The notes beneath the pieces were generated by a model that did no database searches, had not been told where the DNA came from, and was given only the letters and a program-made list of their open reading frames with translations. DNA of 58,585 nt from Vicinamibacteria bacterium. Lineage in GTDB: Bacteria; Acidobacteriota; Vicinamibacteria; Fen-336. The DNA is taken from positions 1 through 58,585 of the forward strand of contig JAMPXO010000016.1 of the NCBI GenBank assembly GCA_023701125.1, given 5' to 3'. Shown one piece after another: positions 5,336 through 51,969 of this stretch. Each line of letters starts with the position of its first letter. Position 1 is the first letter of the stretch. A program made the translations under genes and the position numbers.

Positions 5336-8300
5336 ATGCAGACGTCCAGTCGTGCCGTGAAGGGCCGCATCCTGTGGGCCCTCGCTCTCGCCGTCCTGTG
5401 CGCCCCGCAAGGCCTCGCCCAGGGCGTGCTGAGCATCGAGATCGTCAACGGGTACAACCTGATCGTCGACTCGAACGTCACGGCCCCCTCGACCTACGCC
5501 CCCGGCGCGGCCTACATCGGCGCCCAGGTCTGCAACACGGGCAACGCCACGCTCGACAACGTCACGGCCTACGTCGGCAACTACCAGGCGACACGCAGCT
5601 TCACGGCCACGACCACGGCCGGCAGCCGGACGATCACCGCGACGGGCGTCGGCGCCAACGCCTTCGCACCGACGACCGAGGGCGGCCTGCTGATCAGCGG
5701 CAGCCCCAACATTCCCGCGGGCACGACGCTCTCGGCCATCGCCAGCGCCACCAGCGCGACGCTCAGCGCGCCGGCCACGGTCTCGGGTTCGCTCACGGTC
5801 ACCCTGACCGCGGCTCCCGGCGTCTTCCCGGTCACCACCTTCGGCGCCGACCCCAACCCGCTGCGCTTCCACCTGGCGAACACCGGGCCGTACTCGCTCA
5901 CGCTCGAGGTCGGCAGCGGCTCGCTCGAGGACGGCACTCGCTACGTCGGCAGCCTGGCGGCGGGCGAGTGCCGCATCCAGTACTGGCTGTTCTCGTACCC
6001 GCAGTGCGTGAACGTGAGCGGCGCGCCGCAGTACCCGCCGTGTGACGTCAGCATCGCCGGCGGCATCAAGGCCGAGGACGACCTGTCGCTCGACTACGAC
6101 ATCTGGGCCACGACCACGACGGCGATCGCGTCGCCGACGGTCGTCGAGACCGGCGATTTCACGATGCGCAACGAGATCTCGGCCTCCGCCAACAAGATCT
6201 GGCCCAACACCGCGTCGAAGGTGCCGGACGAGTACCTGGCGGCGATCCAGGGCGTCGTCGGCTGGGGCACGCTGGGTCCCGACGGCCAGCCGCTGACCGC
6301 GGCCAGCGCCGTCTACCCGGGCCAGCGCGTGATCACGACCCAGGGCATCTGGTACGACCTCGGCAACGTCGGCCACGGCTTCGACAACAACGGGGACCTG
6401 ATCCCCGACCAGAACGCCTGGCTGCAGCCGGTCGGCGACGCGGCCTCGTTCGACACCGCCTGCTTCCGGATGGTCAACGTGTACGGGATCGTGATCGTCA
6501 AGCTCAAGGACGGCGGCGAGCTGCTGATCCCGTTCCAGAACCAGCTCTACCACGAGAACCTGCCCGACAACACGGGCGTCGTCGGCCTCGTCTACTACCA
6601 GTACATCGCCACCCGCGAGGGCTGCGCCGCGAACATGACGCCGTACCAGGAAGCGGCCTCGGGCTACGACAACGAGAAGTTCAGCGCCGACTACGGCCTG
6701 AACCTCGGCCTGCAGAGCGGCGAGTTCGACACCGACCTGACGTTCAGCAAGACCGACGGCGTGACGACCGTGGCGCCGGGGGGCACGCTGACCTACACGA
6801 TCTCGGCGACCAACTCGACCGGCGTGGCGCTGGGCGCGCCTGACCTCGGCACCCCGCTCGTCTTCCGCGAGTCGATCCCGACCGGCACCACCTACGTGGC
6901 GAGCTCGGCCGACAACACCATGGTCGCGCCGACCGGCACCGGCACGTACAGCCAGGGCTTCACGGACGTCGACGGCAACCTCGACCCCTGCCCGATCAAC
7001 TACAACATCACCAGCTCGAGCTGGCTGCCCTTCTACTCGAACGACGGCGGCTTCACCTGGGTGCTGACCCCCGAGCCCTCGGGCGTGACCGACATCCGCT
7101 GGCTGTTGCAGACGACGATCGCCCTCGACGGGTCCCACGACCGCTCGGCGTGCGTGGCGCCGAACGGGGTCTACGACGACGGCACGCTGGACACCTCGCT
7201 GCCGCCCGGCAAGACCGTCAGTGTCCAGTTCCAGGTCACGGTCGACACCAACCCCAGCGCCGTCATCTGCAACACCGCGCGGGTCGGCTTCGGGCCGGCG
7301 CTCTCCAACGTCGAGGCCACCGACTGCACGCTGGTCAGCGGCCCCAACAGCATCGCGGGCAGGGTCTTCGAGGACGACGGCGGCGACGGCACCGCGACCT
7401 ACGGCAACGGGCTGATCGACAACGCGACCGAGGTCGGCATCGGCAACGGCACGACCGGCACCCTGGTCCGGCTGTACTACGACGCCAACGCCGACGGCCT
7501 GCTCGACGAGGGCGACCTCTACTACGACGAGACCTTCGCTTCGGCGACCGGCGCCTACTCGTTCACGCTCCTGCCCGACGGCAACTTCATCGTCGTCGCC
7601 AAGAAGTACGACGGGGTCACGGTCACCACCACCGCGGGCAGCATGACCGTCACCTCGCCGCAGGCGGTGTTCACGTCGGACGACATTGGCAAGAGCATCT
7701 CCGGCAACGGCATCCCGCTGGGCGCCACGATCGCGGCCGTGATCTCGCCCACCGAGATCGAGATCAGCTCCAATGCGACGGTCTCGAACACGGTGATCGC
7801 GCTGGTCGCCGCCGGCACCAGCGACGCGGCGACCGAGTTCCTGGCGGGCCGCGTCACCAATGCCGACCTCACGACCGGCTGGGGCAACACCACCTACGAT
7901 CCGAACCTGGCGCTGACCACGGACTCGGGGATCCTCAAGCTGCACGAGGACCTGACCACGGTGTCGCTGGCGATCAGCATCGACCTCGACCACTCGAACG
8001 CCCTCAACCAGAGCCTGACCACCACCGAGCTGACCGCGATCAACTTCGGCTTCGCGCCGCCGTTCGAGCTGACCAAGACCGTGGCGGCGACGACCGTCGA
8101 CGAGGGCGACCTCTTCGACTACACGATCGTGCTGACGAACCGCCTGCCCAGCGTCGGCGTGCAGGGCCCGTCGGGCTGCCAGTACACGGCGTGGGCGACG
8201 ACCGGCTCCAACGGCACGCCGGCGAACAAGGAATTCACGAACTTCGCGGAGGCCCACGACGGGCCCAACCGCCAGGTGGCCACGGCCTACATCGAAGGCG

Positions 8301-11300
8301 GCGCCAACCGCTTCATGTACTCGCAGGGCTTCCGCCTGGCCGACCAGGCCGGCTCGATCACCCGCGTCGAGGTGCTGGTGATGGCCTACTACGACGGCAC
8401 ACTCGACAACGACCGGCTGGAGCTGCAGGCGCGGCTGGCCGGCGTCGACAACACGCTGACCACGATCAACTCGGCGGCGATGGCGTCGTACATCGGCCCG
8501 CCGCCCGACCTCAACCCCAACAGCGCGATCTCCTGGGACGTGACGTCCAACCGCCCCGGCGGCGGGAGCTGGACCTGGGCCGACGACTTCTTCGGGCTGC
8601 GCGTCTACACCAACCCCGCGAAGGCGTCCGGGGCCGACCCGCGCACGTTCTCCATGGACGCCGTCGGCATCCGGGTGACCACCGACGCCGACTGCGTCGC
8701 CGGCACCTCGACCACGCTCGACCCGGTGCCGCTGCAGGACCGCTACGACGCGACCTGGATGTCGTTCGTCTCGGCGGTGCCGCCGCCGACGACCGTCTCG
8801 GGCTCGACGCTGCAGTGGGACAACGTCGGCCCGATCCTGCCCGGCACCTCGACCACGGTGACGGTGACGATGCGCGCCAACGACGTGGCCGGCCTGGAAC
8901 TCGGCTCCTGTGCCACGACCTTCGCCGGCATCCCCGGTACCGCGCCGCCGACGGACACGCTGTGCAACCTGGCCGAGACCGCCTACACCGGCCACAACGT
9001 CTACTACGCCGACGGGCGCCTGGCCAACGACGACGACGACAAGGTCGCGGTCAACATCCAGGGCAAGGGCGAGCTGCGCGGCACGGTGTTCCGCGACGAC
9101 GGCAACACCGCGGCCGACGGCTGGGCGATGGAGGCCGCGTCGATCGACCTGCGGCTCGCCAACGTCAGCGTCACGTTGTTCGCCTGCGTCAAGGCCGACG
9201 GCGTGACGCTCGAGACCGGAGCCACCAACAACAAGACCTGTCTGACGCAGACCGGCGGCAACAGCTGGCTGGCCTGGTCCACGACGATCACTGACGCCGA
9301 CGGCGCCTACGAGTTCCTCGGTCTCGACAGCGGCTACTACATCATCCAGGTCGGCGACACCGACGGCGACGTCACGACCGCCGGCTCCTCCCCGTTCGGC
9401 TTCACGCAGACGGCGGAGGCCCGCGATACCCAGACCGTCACCGGCCTCAACTCGAACGGCGACGACTGCCTGCCGATCAGCGGCGGGGTCACCTGCAACA
9501 GCACCTGGGGCTCCTCGACTGCCGACCTGAATGTCGGGTTCAACCTCCTCAACGGTGCTGCCGAGGAGACGATCAACGGCATCGACTTCGGCTACTTCAG
9601 CACCGAGGTGCTGATCTACGGCAACGTCTGGCACGACGTCGACGGCGACGCCACCCGCGATACCGGCGACGGCGACCTGGACAACTTCACGGTCCAGCTC
9701 TACACCGACCCCAACGGCGACGGCGACCCGGCCGACGGCGCTCTCGTCTCGACCGACGTCTCGGACGCGGACGGCAACTACGCGTTCACGGTCAACATCC
9801 TCGCCAGCACCAACTACACGATCGTCGTCACCCCCGAGACGCTGCCCAACAACGTCTGGGCCGAGACGGACGAGGCGACGGTCACCGGCGGCAGCGTGCT
9901 GACGCCGCTGGACCTCGACAACCGGATCCGGGTCACGGTCGCGCCCGGCGCCACCTCGGGCTCGCACGACTTCGGCTACACGCTCGATACCACCTCGGAC
10001 ATCGGCGACACCGTCTACATCGACTTCGACGCCGACGGCATCCAGGACCCGACCGAGAACGGCATCCCGAACGTCACGGTGTGGCTGTACGAAGACGTCG
10101 ACCGCGACGGCACGATCGACGCCGGCGTCGACGACCTGCTCCAGACCGACGTCACCGACGCCTTCGGCGAGTACCTCTTCACGGGGCTGCCGGAGGGCAA
10201 CTACATCGTCCAGGTCGACACCACCGACCCCGACTTCCCGAGCGACGTCACCGCGACGGCCGACCCCGACATCTTCGCCGGCACGATCGGCAACTACGTC
10301 TGGTACGACAACGACAACGACGGCGTCCAGGACGCGACCGAGGCCGGCATCCCCGGCGTCGTCGTCCTGCTGTGGGCCGCCGACGCGAACGTCGGCTTCA
10401 ACGCCAGCCAGGACACGCTGATCGCGGCGACCACGACCAACATCAACGGCAACTACCTGTTCACCGGCCTGCCCGCCGGCTCGTACTACGTGACCGTCGA
10501 CGAGACCACGTTGCCGGTGACGCTCAGCCGCTCGACGCCGGTCGCCGCCAACTCCAACCTGATCACGCTGGCCAGCAGCACCGCCAGCGACCTGACGGCG
10601 GACTTCGGCTACTACGCCGCCCAGGTCGTGATCGGCAGCCGGGTCTGGCACGACACCGACGGCGACGGGGTCCAGGACGCGGGCGAGATCGGGCTGCCCG
10701 GGGTGGACATCACGATCAGCGGCGCCAGTTGCGCGACCCCGTGCACGGCGACGACGGACGAGGCCGGCTACTGGACGCTCGCGTTCAACACGGCCGGCAC
10801 GGCCCTCGGCAACGGCACCTACACGATGACGGTGGACACTACCGACCTGCCGAGCGGCGTCACGGCGACCACCGGCACCACCGGCACGGACAGCGTGACG
10901 ATCGCGGGGCTGGTCGACAACGTCAACCTGACTACCGGCGGCATCGTCACCACCGACTTCGACTTCGGCTACCGCTATGCGACCGGGTCCCCGACCGGGT
11001 CGATCACGGGCTCGGTGTTCCTCGACGCGGACGGCGACGACCTGCTGGACTCGGGCGAGGCGATGGCCAGCGTCACCGTCAACCTGCTCGACGAGAACGG
11101 CTACGTGATCGCCACCACCACGACCGACGTCACCGGCGCCTACGCGTTCACGGGCGTGTTCATCGGCGACTACGCGGTCGAGGTGCTGGCCTCCTACGGC
11201 ACCCGCTACAGCGTGCTGTTCCTGTCGTCGACCTCGGGCTTCCCGAACCTGAACGTGGCCTACGACGCGACCCAGGCGACCACGGCCGACGACCAGAGCT

Positions 11301-14300
11301 CGGTGGCCGTCGACGGCGTCCACGACAACCTGCTGCAGGACTTCGGCTACGAGCGCTTCCTCGGCTCGGTCGGCGACACGGTCTACTGGGACGCCAACGA
11401 GAACGGCACCCAGGACGTGGGCGAGCCGGGCATCTCCGGCGTCCTGGTCAGCCTCTACGACTGCACCTGGGCGGACGACGGCGACTTCATCTTCGAGAGC
11501 GCCGAGCGGAGCTGCACGGTCGCGCTGGACACCGTCACCACCACCGTCGACGACCCGCTGACGACGGCCGACGAGGGCGGCAAGTACCTGTTCTCGAACC
11601 TCGACACGCTGGCCACCAACCACTACTACGTGGTGGGCGTGGACACCGCTTCGCTGCCCGGCCCCTACGTGACCAGCCCGGGCCCTGGCGTCTACCTGAC
11701 CGCGGACCCCGAGACCGACGGTCTCGTCTGCACGTCGCTGACGCCGTCCACCAACCCGCCGTCGACCACCTGCGACAACTTCAACCTGGTCCAGGTCTTC
11801 CGCGGCGGCCTCAACTACCTGGGCGCCGACTTCGGCTACCAGATCGCCTCGCTGCCCAACTACGCCAAGCTCGGCGACCACGTCTGGATCGACACCGATG
11901 GCGACGGCACGCTCGACGTCGGCGAGCCGGGCATCCCCAACATCAGCGTCTGGATCGACGCCGACGGCGACGGCGTCCTCGACTGGTCCGACGCCAACTC
12001 GAACGGCGAGTGGGACTCGGGTGAAGGCGAGCGCTGGACCGTGACCGACACGGACGGCTACTACCTGTTCACCGGCCTGGCCGACGGCTCGTACCAGGTC
12101 CGGGTGCTGACCTCCGACGCGGACTGGCCCTCCGGGCTGCCGACCACGCCGACGTTCGAGGTGCGCTCGACCAACCTCACCAGCCTCGACAGCATCGCGA
12201 TCGCCACGATCTCCGGCGGTGCCGTCACCGCCATCGACGACGGCCACGTCGGCAACACCGACACCTGCACGAACTGCGACCTGAACGTCGACTTCGGCTA
12301 CCGCTACGCCGGCACCAACAGCCTGAGCGGCACGGTCTGCATCGACGCCCCGGCCGAGGACGGCAACTGCGGCCGCGAGACGGCGAGCGTCACCACCACC
12401 AGCGGCAGCGCGACCGTGACCTCGGCCGGGCTGTTCTCGTCCGACATGGTCGGCTCGTCGATCTCCGGCACGGGCATCCCGGCGGGCGCGACGATCACCG
12501 CCTTCACCGACGCCAACACGGTCACGATCAGCGCGCCGGCGACCGCGGACGGCACGGTGACGGCCACCATCAACCGCTACTCCGGCACCATCCCCGGCGA
12601 CGAGTCGCCGATGTCCGGCATCAGCGTCTACCTCTACCGGTGGACCGACACCGACGCCGACAACGTCGCCTGGGCCACGGACGGCACGCTCGACGCCGGC
12701 GACACCTTCGTGCTGATGGGCTCGACGTCGACCGACGCCAACGGCGACTACTCGTTCACCAACGTGCCCGACGACGTCGTCATCGTCTTCGGCGTCAACC
12801 CGGCGCAGAGCCTGCTGCTCAACACCACCCAGGCCAACACGGCGGTGGAGGACGGCGGGCTCAGCCAGCAGGTCTACAACGGCCAGACGATCTACGACTC
12901 GACGCTGGTGGCCTCGATCATCCGCCAGGCGCTGAAGCTGGCACCCGACGCCGACAACGTCGTTCGCAACGTCGACTACGCCTTCGACGGCACCTACAAC
13001 GGGGCCATCACCTACGACTACGGCGACCTGCCCAACGACACCTACGGCGCGACGGTGCCCGACTACAACATGACGCTGCTGCGCGTCGGCGGCGCTCGCC
13101 ACCTGGTCGGCAGCGTGTTCCTCGGCACGGGCGTGACCGCGGACACCGACGGCTTCGACAGCATCGACGCGGCCGGCGAGGTCGACGCCGTCGGCAACGA
13201 CGGCGTGGCGCTGGTCGGCGGCCAGATCAGCCCCGGCACCGACGGCGGTGCCCTGGACGTGTTCGTCACCAACCCGACCACCGCCCAGGCCTGGCTGGTC
13301 GGCTGGATGGACTTCAACAAGGACGGCGACTTCGCCGACGAAGGCGAGCGCATCGTGCAGCAGGCAGTCGTCGCCGGCCAGCAGTACGTCTTCTTCGACG
13401 TGCCGGCCACGCTGCCCGAGGCGGCGAGTGCCACCTACTTCGCGCGCTTCCGCATCTTCGCGACCGAGCCGCTGCTGATCTCGGCGACCGGCACCTCGCT
13501 CAGCTCGACGTTCGAGCCGCTCGGCGGCGAGGTCGAGGACTACGCCTTCGCGCTCAGCGTGACGGCGGCGGTCGTCAGCCGCTTCGAGGCCCGCGACACC
13601 GCTCGCGGCATGGCGCTGGAGTGGGAGACCGCCTCCGAGGTCGGTACCCTCGGCTGGTTCCTGCACCGCTACGACGACGAAGCGGGTCGCTTCGTGCCCG
13701 TCCACGAGCGGCGCCTGCCCTCGGTCCGGCGGCGCCAGGGGGGTCTCTACCGCTACGTGGACGAGACGGCGACACCCGGCCAGCCCTACACGTACCAGTT
13801 GGTCGAGGTCGAGCTGTCGGGCCGGACCAACGTCTACGGCCCGTACCGGGTCGACACCCGGAAGACCGACGCCAGCGCGGGTGCGCCGGTCGTGCAGGCC
13901 CGCGGCCGCCGGCTCGACGCCGCCGAGCGGGAGACGGGCTTCGCCAGCGTGCCCAAGGGCCCGTCGCGGCCCGCGGACAAGGACCACGCCTCCAGCCGCC
14001 AGCCCCCGTCCGGCCGGGCGGGGAGCGTGAAACTGGAAGTCGGCGCTCGCGGCCTCTACTACGTGAGCCTGGCGGATCTGGCCGCGTGGATCGGCCGGCC
14101 CGTCGACTACAAGCGCCTGGTCTCGCCGCAGAACCCGTACGCGCTGGTGCAGGGTGGGAACACGATCGCCTTCGACGTGACGCCCGACCGCCAGGGCCTG
14201 GTCTTCTTCGGCCAGGAGCTGGACTCGATCTACACGGCGCACAACGTCTACGGCTGGGGCGCCGGCACCGGCCGCGGTGTGCGGATGGCCGCTCGCAACG

Positions 14301-16072
14301 AGATGCAGCCGACGCCGGCGTCCGGCGCCGAGCTCTTCGGGCGCCGGGTCCACGCCGAGGTCGACCAGATCCAGGCCGACGACGCGTTCAACGAGCCGGA
14401 GGCCGACACCTTCCTGTGGGACTTCGTGTTCTGGGGCTACGACCCGGCGTTCACGTTCGACGCCGACGGCGCGCGCGCCGGCGAGGCCACGCTCAGCATC
14501 CGGGTGAAGGGCCTGTACGACACCCCCACCAGTCCCGACCACGTGGCGGCGGTGAAGATCAACGGTCAGCAGGTCGGCGAGGTGGTGCTCGACGGCCTCC
14601 AGGACCGGACGATCGAGCTGCCCTTCGAGGGCAGCGTGCTGGTCGACGGCGCCAACGTGCTCGAGCTGTCGGCCGACATCGACGTGGCGCCCAACACCGT
14701 GTTCATGGTCGACTCGTTCGAGATCCGCTACCCGAGCGTCTACCGCGCGGCCGGCGACCAGATCGAGGCCCGGGCGGACGGCAACGCCGCCGTCCTGCTC
14801 TCCGGCTTCAGCCGCCCCGACATCTTCGTCTACGACATCACCGACCCGCTGCGCCCGGTGCAGGTGAACGGCCGCCCGCGCACGTTCGGCGACGGGACGT
14901 TCGGCGTCGAGTTGACGCCGCCGTCGCCGGCCGACACCGTGTACTTCGCCGCCACGCCCGCGGCGTTCCAGGCTCCCGCCCGGATCTGGGAGAACGTGCC
15001 GTCGTCGCTCGCCACCGACGATCCCGGCGCCGAGTACGTGATCCTGGCGCCGGCGGCGCTCAAGGCGACGGCGCAACGGCTCGCGGACTACCGCTCCGAC
15101 CTGCGCACGATCGTGATCGACCTCGAGGACGTCTACGACGAGTTCAACCACGGCATCCCCAGCCCCCACGCGATCAAGGCGTTCTTCGACCACACGTGGC
15201 GCCACTGGAGCACGGCGCCGCGCTATGCGCTGCTGGTCGGCGACGGCTCCGTCGACTACAAGGACGTGTGGGGCCTCGGCCAGAACCTCGCACCGACGAT
15301 GCGCATCAACACCCCCAGCGGCCTGGTGCCGTCCGACGCCTGGTTCGGCGACCTCGACCAGGGCCAGCCTGGCCCGGAGGTGGTGATCGGTCGCCTGCCG
15401 GCGGCGGACCCCGCCGAACTCGACCAGATGATCGACAAGGTCCTGGCCCGCGAGGCGAGCCTGGGCAGCCCGTGGCAGGAGAAGACGGTGCTGGTCGCCG
15501 AGGTCGCGGATCACGCCGGCGCGTTCCCCGACGACTCCGAGCGGGTCGCGGCGGCCGACGGCGGCGTCCAGGAGAAGTTGTACCTGTCGCCGGCTGCCGG
15601 CGTGCCGGCCGTCACCACGACGTACGCACGCACCCAGTTGCTGGCCGCCTTCACGAACGGGGCGGGCTTCATCAGCTACCTCGGTCACGGCGGCTACGAC
15701 CGGATCGCCAACGAGACCCTGCTGCACAGCAACGACGTCGTCGGCATGACCAACCTCGACCAGCCGGTGATGACCGCGATGACCTGCGTCGTCAACGACT
15801 TCGCCCAGGCCGGCGACGCCAGCATCGGCGAGTTGCTGATGCGCCAGCCTGGCGGCGGCGCGGCGGCCCTGTGGGGCGCGTCCGCACTGTCCCAGAACGA
15901 GTTCGCCGTGCTGCTGGCCGAGGGCTTCTACGCGTCGATCACCGCCGGCGGCGGCGATCGGCTCGGCGACGCCGTCCGCGAGTCGGTCGCCCGCTACGAC
16001 ACGACCGGTGGGCCGAAGTACCTGGGCAACGGTTATGTCCTGCTCGGCGACCCGGCGATGCGGGTGCGCTGA
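5336..16072 (+). CDS. Giant secreted SdrD-repeat protein with C25 gingipain-type peptidase domain
   Basis: A 3578-residue exported protein. ATG at 5336 follows a GGGGGAG ribosome site and begins a clear signal peptide ending near LAQ-G. In order: a beta-rich N-terminal region; a DUF11-like segment (GGTLTYTISATNSTG); about ten SdrD-B-like beta-sandwich repeats at roughly residues 669-2490, with DxDGDGxxDxxE calcium-type loops and GxYxF strands; a GEVED domain at about 2560-2742 (WMDFNKDGDFADEG ... GGEVEDYAF); a fibronectin-like segment; and a C25 peptidase domain at about 3230-3555. The candidate dyad is His3451 (YLGHGG) and Cys3484 (MTCVVNDF). Their 33-residue spacing agrees with the known gingipain His/Cys spacing. 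No T9SS-type C-terminal domain is visible. It is probably a surface adhesin or processing protease; the substrate is unknown. Confidence 0.88.
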   Translation: MQTSSRAVKGRILWALALAVLCAPQGLAQGVLSIEIVNGYNLIVDSNVTAPSTYAPGAAYIGAQVCNTGNATLDNVTAYVGNYQATRSFTATTTAGSRTITATGVGANAFAPTTEGGLLISGSPNIPAGTTLSAIASATSATLSAPATVSGSLTVTLTAAPGVFPVTTFGADPNPLRFHLANTGPYSLTLEVGSGSLEDGTRYVGSLAAGECRIQYWLFSYPQCVNVSGAPQYPPCDVSIAGGIKAEDDLSLDYDIWATTTTAIASPTVVETGDFTMRNEISASANKIWPNTASKVPDEYLAAIQGVVGWGTLGPDGQPLTAASAVYPGQRVITTQGIWYDLGNVGHGFDNNGDLIPDQNAWLQPVGDAASFDTACFRMVNVYGIVIVKLKDGGELLIPFQNQLYHENLPDNTGVVGLVYYQYIATREGCAANMTPYQEAASGYDNEKFSADYGLNLGLQSGEFDTDLTFSKTDGVTTVAPGGTLTYTISATNSTGVALGAPDLGTPLVFRESIPTGTTYVASSADNTMVAPTGTGTYSQGFTDVDGNLDPCPINYNITSSSWLPFYSNDGGFTWVLTPEPSGVTDIRWLLQTTIALDGSHDRSACVAPNGVYDDGTLDTSLPPGKTVSVQFQVTVDTNPSAVICNTARVGFGPALSNVEATDCTLVSGPNSIAGRVFEDDGGDGTATYGNGLIDNATEVGIGNGTTGTLVRLYYDANADGLLDEGDLYYDETFASATGAYSFTLLPDGNFIVVAKKYDGVTVTTTAGSMTVTSPQAVFTSDDIGKSISGNGIPLGATIAAVISPTEIEISSNATVSNTVIALVAAGTSDAATEFLAGRVTNADLTTGWGNTTYDPNLALTTDSGILKLHEDLTTVSLAISIDLDHSNALNQSLTTTELTAINFGFAPPFELTKTVAATTVDEGDLFDYTIVLTNRLPSVGVQGPSGCQYTAWATTGSNGTPANKEFTNFAEAHDGPNRQVATAYIEGGANRFMYSQGFRLADQAGSITRVEVLVMAYYDGTLDNDRLELQARLAGVDNTLTTINSAAMASYIGPPPDLNPNSAISWDVTSNRPGGGSWTWADDFFGLRVYTNPAKASGADPRTFSMDAVGIRVTTDADCVAGTSTTLDPVPLQDRYDATWMSFVSAVPPPTTVSGSTLQWDNVGPILPGTSTTVTVTMRANDVAGLELGSCATTFAGIPGTAPPTDTLCNLAETAYTGHNVYYADGRLANDDDDKVAVNIQGKGELRGTVFRDDGNTAADGWAMEAASIDLRLANVSVTLFACVKADGVTLETGATNNKTCLTQTGGNSWLAWSTTITDADGAYEFLGLDSGYYIIQVGDTDGDVTTAGSSPFGFTQTAEARDTQTVTGLNSNGDDCLPISGGVTCNSTWGSSTADLNVGFNLLNGAAEETINGIDFGYFSTEVLIYGNVWHDVDGDATRDTGDGDLDNFTVQLYTDPNGDGDPADGALVSTDVSDADGNYAFTVNILASTNYTIVVTPETLPNNVWAETDEATVTGGSVLTPLDLDNRIRVTVAPGATSGSHDFGYTLDTTSDIGDTVYIDFDADGIQDPTENGIPNVTVWLYEDVDRDGTIDAGVDDLLQTDVTDAFGEYLFTGLPEGNYIVQVDTTDPDFPSDVTATADPDIFAGTIGNYVWYDNDNDGVQDATEAGIPGVVVLLWAADANVGFNASQDTLIAATTTNINGNYLFTGLPAGSYYVTVDETTLPVTLSRSTPVAANSNLITLASSTASDLTADFGYYAAQVVIGSRVWHDTDGDGVQDAGEIGLPGVDITISGASCATPCTATTDEAGYWTLAFNTAGTALGNGTYTMTVDTTDLPSGVTATTGTTGTDSVTIAGLVDNVNLTTGGIVTTDFDFGYRYATGSPTGSITGSVFLDADGDDLLDSGEAMASVTVNLLDENGYVIATTTTDVTGAYAFTGVFIGDYAVEVLASYGTRYSVLFLSSTSGFPNLNVAYDATQATTADDQSSVAVDGVHDNLLQDFGYERFLGSVGDTVYWDANENGTQDVGEPGISGVLVSLYDCTWADDGDFIFESAERSCTVALDTVTTTVDDPLTTADEGGKYLFSNLDTLATNHYYVVGVDTASLPGPYVTSPGPGVYLTADPETDGLVCTSLTPSTNPPSTTCDNFNLVQVFRGGLNYLGADFGYQIASLPNYAKLGDHVWIDTDGDGTLDVGEPGIPNISVWIDADGDGVLDWSDANSNGEWDSGEGERWTVTDTDGYYLFTGLADGSYQVRVLTSDADWPSGLPTTPTFEVRSTNLTSLDSIAIATISGGAVTAIDDGHVGNTDTCTNCDLNVDFGYRYAGTNSLSGTVCIDAPAEDGNCGRETASVTTTSGSATVTSAGLFSSDMVGSSISGTGIPAGATITAFTDANTVTISAPATADGTVTATINRYSGTIPGDESPMSGISVYLYRWTDTDADNVAWATDGTLDAGDTFVLMGSTSTDANGDYSFTNVPDDVVIVFGVNPAQSLLLNTTQANTAVEDGGLSQQVYNGQTIYDSTLVASIIRQALKLAPDADNVVRNVDYAFDGTYNGAITYDYGDLPNDTYGATVPDYNMTLLRVGGARHLVGSVFLGTGVTADTDGFDSIDAAGEVDAVGNDGVALVGGQISPGTDGGALDVFVTNPTTAQAWLVGWMDFNKDGDFADEGERIVQQAVVAGQQYVFFDVPATLPEAASATYFARFRIFATEPLLISATGTSLSSTFEPLGGEVEDYAFALSVTAAVVSRFEARDTARGMALEWETASEVGTLGWFLHRYDDEAGRFVPVHERRLPSVRRRQGGLYRYVDETATPGQPYTYQLVEVELSGRTNVYGPYRVDTRKTDASAGAPVVQARGRRLDAAERETGFASVPKGPSRPADKDHASSRQPPSGRAGSVKLEVGARGLYYVSLADLAAWIGRPVDYKRLVSPQNPYALVQGGNTIAFDVTPDRQGLVFFGQELDSIYTAHNVYGWGAGTGRGVRMAARNEMQPTPASGAELFGRRVHAEVDQIQADDAFNEPEADTFLWDFVFWGYDPAFTFDADGARAGEATLSIRVKGLYDTPTSPDHVAAVKINGQQVGEVVLDGLQDRTIELPFEGSVLVDGANVLELSADIDVAPNTVFMVDSFEIRYPSVYRAAGDQIEARADGNAAVLLSGFSRPDIFVYDITDPLRPVQVNGRPRTFGDGTFGVELTPPSPADTVYFAATPAAFQAPARIWENVPSSLATDDPGAEYVILAPAALKATAQRLADYRSDLRTIVIDLEDVYDEFNHGIPSPHAIKAFFDHTWRHWSTAPRYALLVGDGSVDYKDVWGLGQNLAPTMRINTPSGLVPSDAWFGDLDQGQPGPEVVIGRLPAADPAELDQMIDKVLAREASLGSPWQEKTVLVAEVADHAGAFPDDSERVAAADGGVQEKLYLSPAAGVPAVTTTYARTQLLAAFTNGAGFISYLGHGGYDRIANETLLHSNDVVGMTNLDQPVMTAMTCVVNDFAQAGDASIGELLMRQPGGGAAALWGASALSQNEFAVLLAEGFYASITAGGGDRLGDAVRESVARYDTTGGPKYLGNGYVLLGDPAMRVR
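5603..5811 (+). repeat. Nested 65-70-residue module, copy 1
   Basis: Encodes a TTTAGSRTI...LLISGSPNIPAGTTL...ATLSAPATVSG pattern inside the N-terminal domain of the giant protein. The same pattern recurs at about 7619 and 12388. The boundaries are approximate. Confidence 0.65.
7619..7815 (+). repeat. Nested 65-70-residue module, copy 2
   Basis: Carries TTTAGSMTVTSPQ, GKSISGNGIPLGATI and EISSNATVSN inside the first SdrD-B-like repeat, between the strand ending VVAKKYDG and the continuation TEFLAGRV. It matches copies 1 and 3 in protein pattern. Confidence 0.65.
12388..12576 (+). repeat. Nested 65-70-residue module, copy 3
   Basis: Carries TTTSGSATVTSAG, GSSISGTGIPAGATI and VTISAPATADG inside the last SdrD-B-like repeat, between CGRET and the continuation ESPMSGISVYLY. 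Confidence 0.65.
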
Positions 16073-20698: not shown

Positions 20699-21157
20699 GT
20701 GTTCAAAGGGACTTATCGCCACCGCATCGACCCCAAGGGGCGCCTGCCCGTGCCCGCGGCCTTCCGCCGCGCGTTGCCGGAGGCGGACAAGGGGCTCGTG
20801 TTGACGGCCCTCGACGGCTGTCTCGCCGCCTACCCGCTCGCGGAGTGGGCGCGGCTCGAGCAGCAGCTCGCGCAGTTGCCCGCGTTCTCGAAGCCCGTGA
20901 AGGCCTTGTCCCGCCTGCTGCTGTCGCGCGCGATCGACTGCGAGCTCGACGTCCAGGGCCGCATCCTGGTGCCGCCGAACCTCCGCGCCGCCGCCTCGCT
21001 CGGGTCCGAGGTGGTGGTGGTCGGCGTCCTCAACCGTTTCGAGTTGTGGGCGCCCGACTCGTGGGACGCCTTCTGCCGCGACTCCGAGCAACTGCTCGAC
21101 GACGTCTCCCTGGGCGTCGAATGGCCGCTCCGTCCACAGGGAAACCCCAACAGCTAG
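20699..21157 (+). CDS. mraZ: MraZ transcriptional regulator, first copy
   Basis: A 152-residue protein starting at GTG 20699. It has the two SpoVT/AbrB-like halves of MraZ: FKGTYRHRIDPKGRLPVPAAFR at the N-terminus and LSRAIDCELDVQGRILVPPNLR in the middle, each with the DxxGRxxxP signature. MraZ is a DNA-binding protein that controls the dcw cluster and usually represses its own promoter. The copy is followed by a second, differently diverged mraZ with its own promoter, so the two may regulate each other. Confidence 0.92.
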   Translation: MFKGTYRHRIDPKGRLPVPAAFRRALPEADKGLVLTALDGCLAAYPLAEWARLEQQLAQLPAFSKPVKALSRLLLSRAIDCELDVQGRILVPPNLRAAASLGSEVVVVGVLNRFELWAPDSWDAFCRDSEQLLDDVSLGVEWPLRPQGNPNS

Positions 21158-21277: not shown

Positions 21278-21721
21278 ATGCTCCGGGGCAACCATCCGGC
21301 TCGCGTCGACGACAAGGGACGGCTGAAGATCCCGAACGCTTTTCGTGTGCTCCTCGAGGCGCAGTACGGCCCCGAGGTGTTCGTCACGAGCGTCACGGGT
21401 GAGTACGTCCGCGTGTATCCGATGCCCGTCTGGCTCGAGATCGAGCGGAAGCTCGCCGCGGTGCCGCAGTCGAGTCCCGCGCGCCAGCGTTTCCTCGATC
21501 GCGTCAACTTCTTCGGGCAGGTGCTGAGCCTCGACAAGCAGGGTCGCGTGCTGATTCCCCAGTTGCTGCGCGAGTCGGCCGCGATGAGCGGCGAGGTCGC
21601 CGTGCTGGGCCTGATGAACCACGTCGCGGTGTGGAACCACAAGCGGCTCCACGACCGGCTGTTCAAGAAGGAGCCCTTCACGGACGAGGACGGCCGCGTG
21701 CTCGCGGAGTTCGGGATCTGA
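21278..21721 (+). CDS. mraZ: MraZ transcriptional regulator, second copy
   Basis: A 147-residue MraZ. ATG at 21278 begins MLRGNHPARVDDKGRLKIPNAFR, the expected family N-terminus; the longer open frame upstream covers the promoter and operator and is rejected. The second half has FFGQVLSLDKQGRVLIPQLLR. The sequence is clearly diverged from the first copy, with different residues flanking both DxxGR signatures. It directly precedes rsmH with a one-base gap, the normal position of the single mraZ in other bacteria. This copy is therefore probably the ancestral operon member and the upstream one the extra. Confidence 0.92.
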   Translation: MLRGNHPARVDDKGRLKIPNAFRVLLEAQYGPEVFVTSVTGEYVRVYPMPVWLEIERKLAAVPQSSPARQRFLDRVNFFGQVLSLDKQGRVLIPQLLRESAAMSGEVAVLGLMNHVAVWNHKRLHDRLFKKEPFTDEDGRVLAEFGI

Positions 21722-22622: not shown

Positions 22623-23050
22623 GCACCGACCCGCGCAGCGTCGCCCTGTCCGGCATCGGCAAGGCGATCGACAACTCGGGCGTGATCCGCGAGCGCGACC
22701 CACGCGCCTCGCGCGACGTGCGCCACCTGCTGCTGCTGGTCGCGTTGTTCGTCGGCGGCATGGTGCTCTACGCCTGGCCCCACTTCGAGCTGCGCCAGAC
22801 CGGCGTGCTCTCCGACCGCCTGCAGCGCGAGCGCGAGCGGCTGGTCGAAGAGAACCGCAAGCTGCAACTGGAGAAGGCGAGCCTCGAGAACCTGAAGCGG
22901 GTGGAGTCGATCGCCCGTCGCGACCTGCACCTCGCCACCCCCGCCGCTCGCGACGTGTACGTCGTCGAGCGCAGCGCGGCGCCGGCTTCGTCGGAGGCGA
23001 TGGCGGCGCTGCCGGCCTCGCCGGTCGCGAGCCCGGAGGTGCGGCAGTGA
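22619..23050 (+). CDS. ftsL: Cell division protein FtsL
   Basis: A 143-residue bitopic membrane protein. A short cytoplasmic N-terminus is followed by one membrane helix (HLLLLVALFVGGMVLYAWP, near residues 36-54). A coiled coil follows (LSDRLQRERERLVEENRKLQLEKASLENL). The Ala-rich tail overlaps ftsI by four bases. Position between rsmH and ftsI and the helix plus leucine-zipper topology identify it. FtsL links FtsQ/FtsB to activation of the FtsW-FtsI synthase. Confidence 0.85.
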   Translation: MSTDPRSVALSGIGKAIDNSGVIRERDPRASRDVRHLLLLVALFVGGMVLYAWPHFELRQTGVLSDRLQRERERLVEENRKLQLEKASLENLKRVESIARRDLHLATPAARDVYVVERSAAPASSEAMAALPASPVASPEVRQ

Positions 23051-25140
23051 TGGACCGCACGCGCCAGTCGCGGCTGCGGCTGATGTTCCTGGCGATGGGC
23101 GTGACGTTCTGGGGGATCGTGGTGCTCGGTCGCCTGATCCAGCTCCAGGTCTTCCAGCGCCCCGCCTTCGAGCGGCTCGCCTCCAAGCAGAGCGAGCGCA
23201 CGCTCAACCTCGCCCCCCGCCGCGGCCCGATCCTCGACCGCGACGGCCGCGCCCTGGCCGTCTCGGTCGACGCCGAGAGCCTGTACGCGGTGCCGCAGGA
23301 CGTCGACGACCCGGAAGCCACCGCCGCGGCTCTCGCTCGCGCGCTCGGCCTCGACGCCAGTCACCGCCGGGACCTCGTCGTCCAGCTCGGCAAGACCAGC
23401 CGCTACTTCGTGTGGGTCGAGCGCAAGCTCGATCCCGTCCGCGCTCACGCCGTGCGCGAGCTGGGCCTGCCGGGAATCGGCTTCCTGACCGAGAGCCGCC
23501 GCTACTACCCCAAGCGCGAGCTGGCCGCGCAGGTGCTCGGCTACGTGGGCCTCGACGACCACGGCATGTGGGGCATCGAGCAGGAGCTCGACGAGCGCAT
23601 CCGCGGCCGCGCGGCCAAGGTCGTGGTCCGCACCGACGCCCGGCGCCGGCCCGTCGAGCACGTCGAGAAGCCGTCGACCGAAGGCCACGCGGTGGTGCTG
23701 ACGATCGACGAGTCGATCCAGCACGTCGCGGAGGTCGAGCTCGAGAAGGCGGTCCGCGCCACCGGCTCGATCGCCGGCTTCGCGGTGGTGATGGACCCGC
23801 GCAGTGGCGAGATCCTGGCGATCGCCAACCAGCCGACCTTCAACCCCAACCGCTACGCGGCCTACTCGCGCAACACGTGGCGCAACCGGGCGGTGGCCGA
23901 CGCCTTCGAGCCGGGCTCGATCTTCAAGATCTTCACCGCCGCTGCCGGCCTGCAGGAGGGCCTGGTCACGCCCGACGAGGTGATCGACTGCGGCGGCGGC
24001 TTCGTCGAGGTCAGCGGCATCCGCATCAACGACCACGGCGTGTTCCACCAGCTCGCCTTCCGCGACGTGATCGCGCGCTCGTCGGACGTCGGCGTCGTGC
24101 GCGTGGCCCAGCGCCTGGGCCGCGACCAGTTCGGCAAGTACCTGCGCGACTTCGGCTTCGGCGCCCGGACCGGGATCGAGTTGCCGGCCGAGATCCCGGG
24201 CCTGCTGCGGCCGACCCAGCGCTGGAACGCGGTCTCGCTGGCGTCGCTCTCGTTCGGCCAGGAGATCGGCGTCACCGCGATCCAGATGACCGCGGCGGCG
24301 GCCGCCGTGGCCAACGGCGGCTACCTGATGAAGCCGCAGATCGTCAAGCGCCTGCTCGACGCCCAGGGCCGGGTGGTGTCGGAGCCGGCGCCGGTCGCGG
24401 TGCGCCGGGTGCTGACGCCGGAGACGGTCGACGTGCTGACCGAGATCCTGAAACGAGTGGTCACCGACGGCACCGGCCGCAAGGCGGCGATCGACGGCTA
24501 CGTGGTCGCCGGCAAGACCGGCACCGCCCAGAAGTTCGACTTCGCGGCGAAGAAGTACTCGATGATCGACCACGTCGCCTCGTTCGTCGGCTTCGCGCCG
24601 GCCTCGCGGCCCGCGATCGTCGTGCTGGTCTCGCTCGACGAGCCCAAGGGCGCCGCCAACCAGGGCGGCGACGTCGCCGCGCCGCTGTTCTCGAAGATCG
24701 CCGAGCACGCGCTGCGCCGGCTCGCGGTGGCGCCCGACGCCGAGGACCGGGTGCTGCGCCCGGTGCCCGGCGAGCCCGCGCTGCGCGCGGCGCTGACGGC
24801 ACCCGACCCGGCGCTCAGCACCGTCGCCCTCGACGCCGGCGACCCGCTGCTGATGCCCGACCTGCGCGGCCGCAGCGCGCGCGAGGCCGCCGCCGCCGCT
24901 GCCCGCCGCGGGCTGATCGTGGAGCTGCGCGGCAGCGGGCGCGTCGTCGAGCAGGCGCCGGCACCCGGCACCGAGCTGGAGACGGGCATGGCCTGCGTGC
25001 TGACGCTCTCACCCATCGGGTTCCAACGCCGGGATGAACCCGGCGTCGGTCCCATGGGGGCTACGTCGCAAACGGAGCTCCTCCGCCCCCAAGCCCCCAT
25101 GCCGCCTGCTACCAGCTCGCTCGGCGAGGGGCCGCAGTGA
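23047..25140 (+). CDS. ftsI: Septal peptidoglycan transpeptidase FtsI (PBP3) with PASTA domain
   Basis: A 697-residue class B penicillin-binding protein. It has an N-terminal membrane helix, the dimerisation segment NLAPRRGPILDRDGRALAVS (two parts), then the transpeptidase domain. The active Ser291-Ile-Phe-Lys294 lies in EPGSIFKIF, KTG starts at Lys490 (VAGKTGTAQK), and the second motif is S345-S346-D347 where SSN is usual. One PASTA domain (MPDLRGRSAREA...) follows. After VLTLSP, where the domain should end, about 42 residues are encoded by a palindromic repeat element, giving GFQRRDEPG...[13 protein letters not shown] at 23047 and the end at 25140 overlap ftsL and murE. Confidence 0.94.
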   Translation: MMDRTRQSRLRLMFLAMGVTFWGIVVLGRLIQLQVFQRPAFERLASKQSERTLNLAPRRGPILDRDGRALAVSVDAESLYAVPQDVDDPEATAAALARALGLDASHRRDLVVQLGKTSRYFVWVERKLDPVRAHAVRELGLPGIGFLTESRRYYPKRELAAQVLGYVGLDDHGMWGIEQELDERIRGRAAKVVVRTDARRRPVEHVEKPSTEGHAVVLTIDESIQHVAEVELEKAVRATGSIAGFAVVMDPRSGEILAIANQPTFNPNRYAAYSRNTWRNRAVADAFEPGSIFKIFTAAAGLQEGLVTPDEVIDCGGGFVEVSGIRINDHGVFHQLAFRDVIARSSDVGVVRVAQRLGRDQFGKYLRDFGFGARTGIELPAEIPGLLRPTQRWNAVSLASLSFGQEIGVTAIQMTAAAAAVANGGYLMKPQIVKRLLDAQGRVVSEPAPVAVRRVLTPETVDVLTEILKRVVTDGTGRKAAIDGYVVAGKTGTAQKFDFAAKKYSMIDHVASFVGFAPASRPAIVVLVSLDEPKGAANQGGDVAAPLFSKIAEHALRRLAVAPDAEDRVLRPVPGEPALRAALTAPDPALSTVALDAGDPLLMPDLRGRSAREAAAAAARRGLIVELRGSGRVVEQAPAPGTELETGMACVLTLSPIGFQRRDEPGVGPMGATSQTELLRPQAPMPPATSSLGEGPQ
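25015..25099 (+). repeat. Palindromic repeat element, copy A, inside ftsI
   Basis: Ordered blocks are GGGTTCC, a hairpin (CGCCGGG, loop ATGAA, CCCGGCG at 25027-25045), GGTCCC, two variable bases, GGGGGCTACGTCG and TCCTCCGCCCCC. The reverse complement of 47676-47763 has every block in the same order and nearly the same spacing, with a different but still complementary stem. Confidence 0.85.
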
Positions 25141-37879: not shown

Positions 37880-39370
37880 GTGTTCCCCGCGCTGGCCGAC
37901 GACGCGATGATCTCGATGCGTTACGGCTGGCACCTCGCTCACGGCGAGGGCCTCGTCTACAACCCCGGCGAGCGCGTCGAGGGTTACACGAACCTGCTGT
38001 GGACGCTGGTGATGGGTGCGTCGATCGCCGCCTTCGGCAGCCGCGGCGGCGCGCTCGCGATCTCGCTGCTCGGGATCGTCCTGTGCCTCGCCTGCGCGGC
38101 GGCCGCGGCCCGGCTGGCGCGGGCGCTGGCGGCCGCCGCGGGCGCCGATCCCGGGGCGGCCGCGACGACGGCCACGCTGCTGGGGCTCACCTGCTTCCCG
38201 CTCGCCCACTGGGCGCTCTACGGCATGGAGACGACGCTGCTGGCGTTGCTGCTGTGTCTCGCCGCCGAGCGCGCGCTGCAAACGGAGCTCCTCCGCCCCC
38301 AAACCCCCGGCGGGTTGGGACTCGGCGGGCTGCTGGCGCTCCTCGTCTGGACCCGCGCCGACGCCGCGTTGCCGGCGGCGGTGGTGGTCGGCTTCCTGCT
38401 GTGGCGCCCGGCGTCCCGGCGCGCCGCTCTCGTCGCCGCGGCCGTCTGCGGCGCGGCGCTCGCCGCCCACGCGCTCTTCCGCTTTGGCTACTACGGCGAC
38501 TGGGTCCCCAACACCGCCCGCCTCAAGCTCGACGGCATTCCGCTCGAAGCCCGGCTGCAGGCGGGTGCTGCCTTCGGTGGCGAGTTCGCCGCGAGCTACG
38601 GGCCGGCCTTCCTCGTCGTCCTGGCCGGCGCGCTGCGCGGTCGGCGCGGCGCGGCCCTGGCCGCCGCGCTGTGGGCCGTCGCCGGCCTCTACCTGGTGTG
38701 GGTCGGCGGCGACGCCTTCCCGCACCACCGGCTGGTGGTGCTGGTGCTGCCGATCACGTTCGCGGCCTTCGCCGCCGAGCTGGCGCTCGCCTCGCGGGCC
38801 GCGCTGGCCGCGGCGGCCCGGCGCGGCGCCCGCCCCGGCTCGCCCGCGCAGCTCGCCGTGCTGCTCGCGCTGCCGTTCGTGCTCTGGAGCCAGCGGCCCG
38901 ACTGGACGCGGATCGCCCTGCTCGACGAGCCGGCCGCGGCCGTCTACGCCAGCTACAACACCCACGCCTACCTCGACTTGAGCGCCGTGCTCGGGCCGCA
39001 GGCGACGCTCGGCGTGGTCCAGGCCGGCACCCTGCCCTACTACGGCGCCCACTGGCGCACGATCGACTTCCTGGGCAAGGTCGACCCCCACATCGCCCGC
39101 CTGGCGCCCGACCTCTCCGGCGCCGAGAACTGGTTCGGGACCGGGACGGTGCCCGGCCACAACAAGTACGACCTGCGCTACTCCATCCTCGAGCGCCGGC
39201 CGAGCTACGTGCAGACGGCACACTGGGGGAGCCAGGCGCTGGACCTCGCGGGCCTCTACGTCCGCGGCTGGCGCAGCGGCCGCAGCTACCTGCTGCGGAT
39301 CGACGACCCGGCCGTGAACTGGGCCGCCCTCGACGCGGTGACGCCGCTGCCGGGTGCGCCCCGGCGCTGA
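37880..39370 (+). CDS. Polytopic glycosyltransferase-like membrane protein
   Basis: A protein of at least 496 residues with about ten membrane helices. The early [18 protein letters not shown] plus [14 protein letters not shown] is the first-loop pattern of GT-C-type lipid-linked sugar transferases related to AftB/PMT families. It probably moves a sugar from a polyprenyl carrier to an extracytoplasmic acceptor. GTG 37880 is the first ordinary start, but the frame stays open upstream and encodes a good membrane helix ([16 protein letters not shown]). CTG at 37754, behind AAGGGACAGGGA and overlapping ftsZ, may be the true start. A 31-base repeat shared with ftsI encodes QTELLRPQ in one loop. 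Confidence 0.72.
38278..38308 (+). repeat. Fragment of the palindromic element inside the glycosyltransferase gene
   Basis: 31 bases match 25068-25098 in ftsI with a single G-to-A difference and are read in the same frame, so both proteins carry QTELLRPQ followed by Ala-Pro or Thr-Pro. The hairpin and GGGGGCTACGTCG blocks are absent here. Confidence 0.8.
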
Positions 39371-47675: not shown

Positions 47676-47763
47676 TGGGGGGGCGGGGGCGGAGGAGGGT
47701 TCGCTGTCCGACGTAGCCCCCGCGGGACCGGCCCCGACGTGAAGTCGGGGCCGGAACCCAATC
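47676..47763 (-). repeat. Palindromic repeat element, copy B, between convergent genes
   Basis: Read on the minus strand it has the same block order as the ftsI copy: GGGTTCC, a 9-base-pair hairpin (GGCCCCGAC and GTCGGGGCC at 47730-47752, plus-strand loop GTGAA), GGTCCC, two bases, GGGGGCTACGTCG and TCCTCCGCCCCC. It fills the gap between the transporter ATPase and the GH18-like gene and may also end transcription. Confidence 0.85.
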
Positions 47764-51597: not shown

Positions 51598-51969
51598 ATG
51601 GAACGTCGTCAGTTCAATCACATGATCGGCGCCGTCGTGGCCGGCATGGTGGCCGGCTCGCGGGCGCTGGCCCAGCCCGCCGACAAGAAGCCCGAGGACA
51701 AGGCCCCCAAGCACATCTGCAAGGGCCACAACGACTGCAAGGGCATGGGCGGCTGCAAGACCGAAGCCAATGCCTGCGCGGGCAAGAACGCGTGCAAGGG
51801 CAAGGGTGGCTGCGCGGCCGCCGCGGCCAAGCACGAGTGCAAGGGCAAGAACGCCTGCAAGGGCATGGGTGGGTGCAAGACCGACGCCAACGCCTGCGCC
51901 GGCAAGAACGCGTGCAAGGGCAAGGGCGGCTGCGCCGTGCCGCCGAAGATGGCCGAGAAGAAGAGTTAA
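51598..51969 (+). CDS. Bufferin-like cysteine-rich RiPP precursor with duplicated module
   Basis: A 123-residue precursor with a strong AAGGAG ribosome site seven bases ahead. The leader (ERRQF, then GAVVAGMVAG, cleavage near ALA-Q) looks twin-arginine-like. The mature part carries 12 cysteines in two modules offset by exactly 40 residues: Cys 41, 47, 53, 60, 66, 72 and 81, 87, 93, 100, 106, 112, in CKGxNxCKGMGGCKT and CAGKNACKGKGGC contexts. This resembles BufA2-type bufferins, copper-sequestering peptides modified at Cys by an MNIO enzyme. The DUF692 and DUF2063 genes behind supply that context. Metal and modification are inferred. Confidence 0.85.
   Translation: MERRQFNHMIGAVVAGMVAGSRALAQPADKKPEDKAPKHICKGHNDCKGMGGCKTEANACAGKNACKGKGGCAAAAAKHECKGKNACKGMGGCKTDANACAGKNACKGKGGCAVPPKMAEKKS

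Follow-up and report, generated by a model that had tools for sequence, protein, structure and literature searches.

The closest described counterparts of the repeat analysed here are the palindromic elements of Rickettsia (RPEs, RPE-1 to RPE-3 especially) and Wolbachia, selfish elements of ~100-150 bp found in intergenic DNA and also, as peptide insertions that the host proteins tolerate, in frame in many unrelated genes (PMC10969869, PMC3767692). RPEs have been reviewed as the outstanding case of intragenic in-frame palindromes, with 44 integrations in a Rickettsia species. ERIC (127 bp) and RU-1, RU-2 and RU-3 of enterobacteria are short repeats of a MITE-like type; they contain open frames and some copies are intragenic, and insertion of ERIC within conserved domains has been argued to disrupt function (PMC2759123). 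REPs are 20-40 bp in length (PMC3733652), extragenic and dependent on a Y1 transposase, and MITEs of classical IS are short, non-autonomous, multi-copy elements with precise insertion, terminal inversions and a target duplication. An incomplete search of the open literature returned no published description of elements of this kind in Acidobacteriota.

The window, the whole stretch of 58,585 nucleotides that was analysed, belongs to a genome of Vicinamibacteria (Acidobacteriota) of 5.41 Mb in 254 contigs (G000). Its repeat resembles RPEs in being a palindrome that can lodge within unrelated protein genes and keep their frame, and differs from them in its host (Acidobacteriota rather than Rickettsiales, with the core only in one Vicinamibacteria genus), in its GC content (~70-78%) and multi-megabase genome, in its 84/87-bp unit and head-to-tail arrays, in its use of both orientations, all six frames (two of them preferred) and a likely CCGWCGG target with a short duplication, and in insertions that relatives lack at the three loci checked. 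The repeat works like RPEs and is apparently unrelated to them, being set apart by description and taxon rather than by sequence alignment; the likeness to Rickettsia elements proposed by a first-pass annotation of this DNA is one of behaviour. From ERIC the repeat differs in sequence and in that about one third of its arrays lie in genes, often mid-domain. With REPs and BIMEs it shares a palindromic form, high copy number and a position near gene 3' ends, but 41 of its 113 sampled arrays lie in genes and Y1 is absent. It has the brevity, non-autonomy, copy number and precise insertion of MITEs, together with terminal inversions like theirs and what may be a target duplication (triplet exact in 28 of 101 arrays here), but its terminal inverted repeat is minimal, its internal hairpin covaries strongly, and searches with Y1, DDE_Tnp_1 and rve returned no parent IS.

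The features of the ftsI locus are as follows.

23047-25140, plus strand: host gene ftsI, encoding a penicillin-binding transpeptidase of 697 aa with one PASTA domain; its stop overlaps the murE start.
25015-25098, plus strand: inserted 84-bp unit of 28 codons, made up of an 81-bp core (25018-25098) and a 3-bp target copy (ATC); the orthologous site is empty in the same-genus genomes G001 and G002.
25023-25049, no strand assigned: hairpin 1, with an 11-bp stem (25023-25033 with 25039-25049) and loop ATGAA; 9 of 11 pairs are changed on both sides across copies.
25056-25090, no strand assigned: hairpin 2, GGGGGC (25056-25061) with GCCCCC (25085-25090); 98.9% of cells are paired.
25094-25101, plus strand: 3' end CCCCC and the following triplet ATG, whose 5' counterpart is ATC at 25015-25017, an imperfect 3-bp duplication.
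25099-25140, plus strand: the 13 native C-terminal residues of FtsI, 3' of the insert; relatives end in VAVASTLAEGPQ and the stop.

The dcw cluster around ftsI is intact, and the insert leaves the ftsI stop and the murE overlap in place. At the head of the cluster, tandem short genes (20699-21157 and 21278-21721), both apparently MraZ-like by sequence, immediately precede mraW (rsmH). FtsI residues 657-684 (28 residues) are encoded by the element. The same-genus orthologues of G001 and G002, which are 85% identical, match the FtsI of the window up to residue 654-656, the exact element start, after which they read WPPDAPVAVASTLAEGPQ or WPPAAPVAVASTLAEGPR to the stop; the FtsI of the window resumes with its 13 host residues after the insert. 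Both orthologues are without the 28 codons and still have the final residues in common (SLGEGPQ / TLAEGPQ). The empty site is not base-perfect, as a separate 16-bp length difference adjoins it. The first-pass annotation had attributed the last ~42 residues after the PASTA domain to the element; its position near the C-terminus was borne out, but the element accounts for 28 of the last 41 residues, and the terminal 13 are host sequence, recognisable in relatives (...STLAEGPQ and stop). A tail common to all orthologous FtsI in genomes lacking the repeat was looked for, and the insert was absent from 10 of 10 complete orthologues examined (2 same-genus and 8 from the family and order).

The covariance model scored the ftsI copy (25015-25099, plus strand) at 112 bits (E 4e-23, copy in the training set of the model); a further match in the window, at 24977-25057 on the minus strand, is the ftsI palindrome read backwards. 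Two other copies lie in the window.

47676-47762, minus strand: diverged second copy, flanked by two convergent genes; its hairpin 1 is different and fully paired.
38278-38309, plus strand: third copy, truncated (3' 32 bp), inside the predicted gene 37880-39370, with its frame as in ftsI.

The second copy scored 77 bits (E 3e-15, also in the training set), and its recurrence on the minus strand at 47676-47763, as first annotated, is also obvious in plain alignment. The host of the third copy is a predicted membrane-protein gene in which 10 element residues are encoded in frame, and this copy is possibly the remnant of an older in-frame insertion. Repeats of other kinds in the window are a single very long predicted gene (5357-16072) with recurring segments rich in Asp and Gly (46-97 nt, families D1-D5), SdrD-type B repeat-like by sequence, and a 109-bp direct duplication at 51707-51935 (89% identity, spacing 120 bp).

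When the ftsI segment was searched by BLAST in its own genome, in line with the check suggested in the first annotation, dozens of unlinked copies of 85-95% identity over ~85 bp were returned, many of them tandem. The copy number in G000 is ~200: the 3' module, allowing at most 1 mismatch, matched 219 times (reversed-pattern control, 0), and the covariance model gave at least 150 nearly full-length matches. The model matched 57 times in G001 and 86 times in G002, and gave no match in genomes from four other genera of the family; BLAST gave none in 57 genomes outside the genus. Among 84,980 species, an exact 20-base core matched only two MAGs ("Vicinamibacteria bacterium" and "Acidobacteria bacterium"), and it matched none of 2.9 million viral contigs. 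The repeat is a new family and, judged from these sequence searches, is restricted to one genus. In G000 the unit is 84 bp long, with an 85-bp form that carries one additional base, and in G001 and G002 it is often 87 bp; units abut exactly, head to tail. Arrays lie at the ends of eight G000 contigs, which suggests longer arrays that broke the assembly. In a tree of copies, those of G000 stood separate from those of G001 and G002 (12 label changes vs 29.5 shuffled), so the copies multiplied for the most part within their own lineages; a separate subfamily of in-gene copies was rejected, their clustering on the tree being weak (20 changes vs 24.9 shuffled, 11/500).

The element folds strongly (z about -4.5). 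As first annotated from two copies, the blocks outside the hairpin are conserved and the stem is altered on both sides with pairing kept; this was seen for hairpin 1, in which 75 double-change cells were counted vs 13.6 shuffled, with slid controls far lower. The hairpin 1 alignment was fitted to the model and so leans towards structure, and the double changes are plain in the raw sequences too. Hairpin 2 is almost invariant and leaves no scope for a covariation test. On the ftsI strand, wobble in hairpin 1 comprised 46 A-C vs 5 G-T, most of it from two positions, as expected if the strand opposite the ftsI strand folds. A closing helix, GGGTT/AACCC, proposed by RNAalifold was left out of the model, its wobble evidence conflicting between strands. 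A short inverted repeat marks the termini (GGG..TT / AA..CCCCC); the flank consensus reads CC-R-T-C before GGGTT and G-N-C-GGG after CCCCC. Bordering triplets were identical in 28 of 101 arrays, a minority (28%), vs 15.4 shuffled (0/5000). These data suggest CCGWCGG as the target, with a 3-bp duplication. Since a junction between elements recreates CC-GTC-GGG, the target itself may account for the arrays.

Gene context was scored in 100 regions around copies, which held 113 arrays, with genes called by a home-made 3-periodic Markov finder trained on the sampled sequences with element bases masked; the finder reproduced the known mur/fts cluster and gave a coding share of 92% of the sampled DNA. 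Of these arrays, 41 were inside genes, 11 overlapped gene ends and 61 were intergenic. Intergenic copies favoured convergent spaces (20/49 vs 9/138 background) and lay a median of 11.5 bp from gene 3' ends. Array length was divisible by 3 in 37 of 41 in-gene vs 20 of 61 intergenic arrays (p = 4.2e-9), and 85-bp forms, common between genes, were nearly absent within them. The open-frame requirement being partly circular for the in-gene class, flanks were also scored alone: where both flanks were coding on one strand, 25 arrays were in frame and open vs 7 out of frame, and all 7 of the latter were at gene ends or junctions. In-gene arrays comprised 22 on the same strand and 19 antisense, with same-strand phase 0 used 15 times, antisense phase 2 used 14 times and the remaining four frames 12 times together; the preference for two frames may reflect GWC at the target being a codon (Asp or Val). 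Many insertions would survive inside genes because 84 and 87 are divisible by three and because stops are usually absent from four of the six frames, as seen in the 84-bp units of the in-gene set. The first-pass proposal that an intergenic-type repeat entered ftsI in frame is upheld by the empty orthologous sites and the genome-wide family, and in-frame entry into genes is supported as a general habit of the family, with dozens of copies in genes that apparently still work.

Pfam domains span the insert in eight hosts, namely a GT2 glycosyltransferase (GT2), MoeA (MoeA_N), D-aminoacyl-tRNA deacylase (Tyr_Deacylase), HisF (His_biosynth), an MFS transporter (MFS_1), an amino-acid permease (AA_permease_2), an AMP-binding ligase (AMP-binding) and an amidohydrolase (Amidohydro_1); the insert of RecQ is interdomain and that of HypD N-terminal. 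The deacylase of G000 is 170 aa long and that of each relative 142, the difference being an insert of exactly 28 residues at FPDA^GAMN, and HisF of G002 is contiguous at the G000 insertion point, so that at 3 of 3 loci checked (ftsI, deacylase, HisF) the insertion was not common to the relatives. An AlphaFold model of the deacylase with its insert had a mean pLDDT of 56, lowest in the insert, and was too poor to use. In G002 (C37:3637-3985), four tandem 87-bp units lie in frame in one predicted gene, giving a 29-residue protein repeat.

With a probability of about 85%, we regard the repeat as a non-autonomous, MITE-like palindrome that has multiplied in one genus, is moved in trans to CCGWCGG-like sites and survives in genes as in-frame insertions of 28-29 residues. 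The element would consist of 81 bp and a 3-bp target duplication (84 bp in total; 85-87 bp in other subtypes), and an enzyme acting in trans would recognise its folded ends or hairpins and insert it at CCGWCGG-like sites; a mobilising enzyme is implied by the precision with which the element enters unrelated genes at a short target. Junctions between elements would recreate the target and yield head-to-tail arrays. Selection would remove harmful insertions; the survivors would mostly adjoin gene 3' ends, and those in genes would be 28-29-residue insertions in loops or tails, FtsI being one such protein. Ribosomes probably read through the insert, because it is frame neutral and excised RNA would not need to be, and the peptide would be retained in the mature protein. 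The three genomes of the genus seem transposase-poor: no Y1_Tnp and no DDE_Tnp_1 were found in G000, G001 or G002, and rve, at most one domain per genome, was found in one gene each in two of the three, with no element-like ends seen at those two loci. Ten genes between copies, tested against Pfam, were ordinary and nothing transposase-like was among them.

The strong fold and covarying stem of the element would also be compatible with removal of in-gene copies before or during translation, by self-excision of RNA or translational bypassing, leaving the protein unaltered, and the one-sided wobble of hairpin 1 hints at a role as single-stranded RNA or DNA. Removal, however, would need neither frame neutrality nor stop-free frames, yet nearly all in-gene arrays are divisible by 3 and 85-bp forms are scarce within genes; in-gene copies also occur in both orientations, and an Rfam search gave only chance matches below threshold, with no ribozyme or intron family among them. 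We regard removal as very improbable. If the repeat were of the REP/BIME type and owed its mobility to a RAYT (Y1 tyrosine transposase), as such repeats do in enterobacteria and pseudomonads, this would fit the palindromic form, the conserved stem, the copy number and the preference for gene 3' ends and convergent spaces, but the lack of Y1_Tnp in G000, G001 and G002, of which two are 92-95% complete, largely refutes this origin, and the unit, at 2-3 times REP length, enters ORFs and is bordered by a duplicated triplet; such an origin is very unlikely.

Spread by homologous recombination or gene conversion between copies would require no mobilising enzyme, in keeping with the lack of a transposase in the searches, and unequal crossover can lengthen tandem arrays. 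De novo integration is nevertheless needed to explain entry into unrelated single-copy genes, where the target is a short consensus and the flanks have no long homology, and we give recombination little credence as the source of the copies. Finally, FtsI tails vary in length across the family, as they might if the tail of the window FtsI were ancestral and lost in relatives or resembled an intergenic repeat by chance. Against this, its 84 bp match dozens of unlinked copies at up to 95% identity, none of the ten orthologues has the insert and an equally precise gain is seen in two further genes, which makes an ancestral or fortuitous tail scarcely credible. The mobile, MITE-like palindrome remains the preferred reading. 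Beyond it, the odds stand near even for a wider proposal, in which protein-coding palindromes would have arisen independently in Acidobacteriota as a codon-matched unit (84/87 bp including the triplet), frame-neutral at CCGWCGG and moved by a hairpin-recognising enzyme outside the common transposase families, and would have added 28-29 residues to dozens of conserved proteins.

Selfish palindromes in frame in many genes are known mainly from Rickettsia and Wolbachia, for which reduced genomes and weak selection are a natural explanation. A second, larger and apparently unrelated case in a multi-megabase, GC-rich bacterium indicates that the phenomenon is general, and opens to test both the way in which these elements spare the genes they enter and the question of whether new protein segments arise from them. 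That the usual transposases are absent suggests a mobiliser of an undescribed kind. Loop insertion can be studied as a natural experiment in FtsI, HisF, MoeA and the tRNA deacylase, each with a gain of 28 residues; for two of the four, orthologues with a clean empty site were compared.
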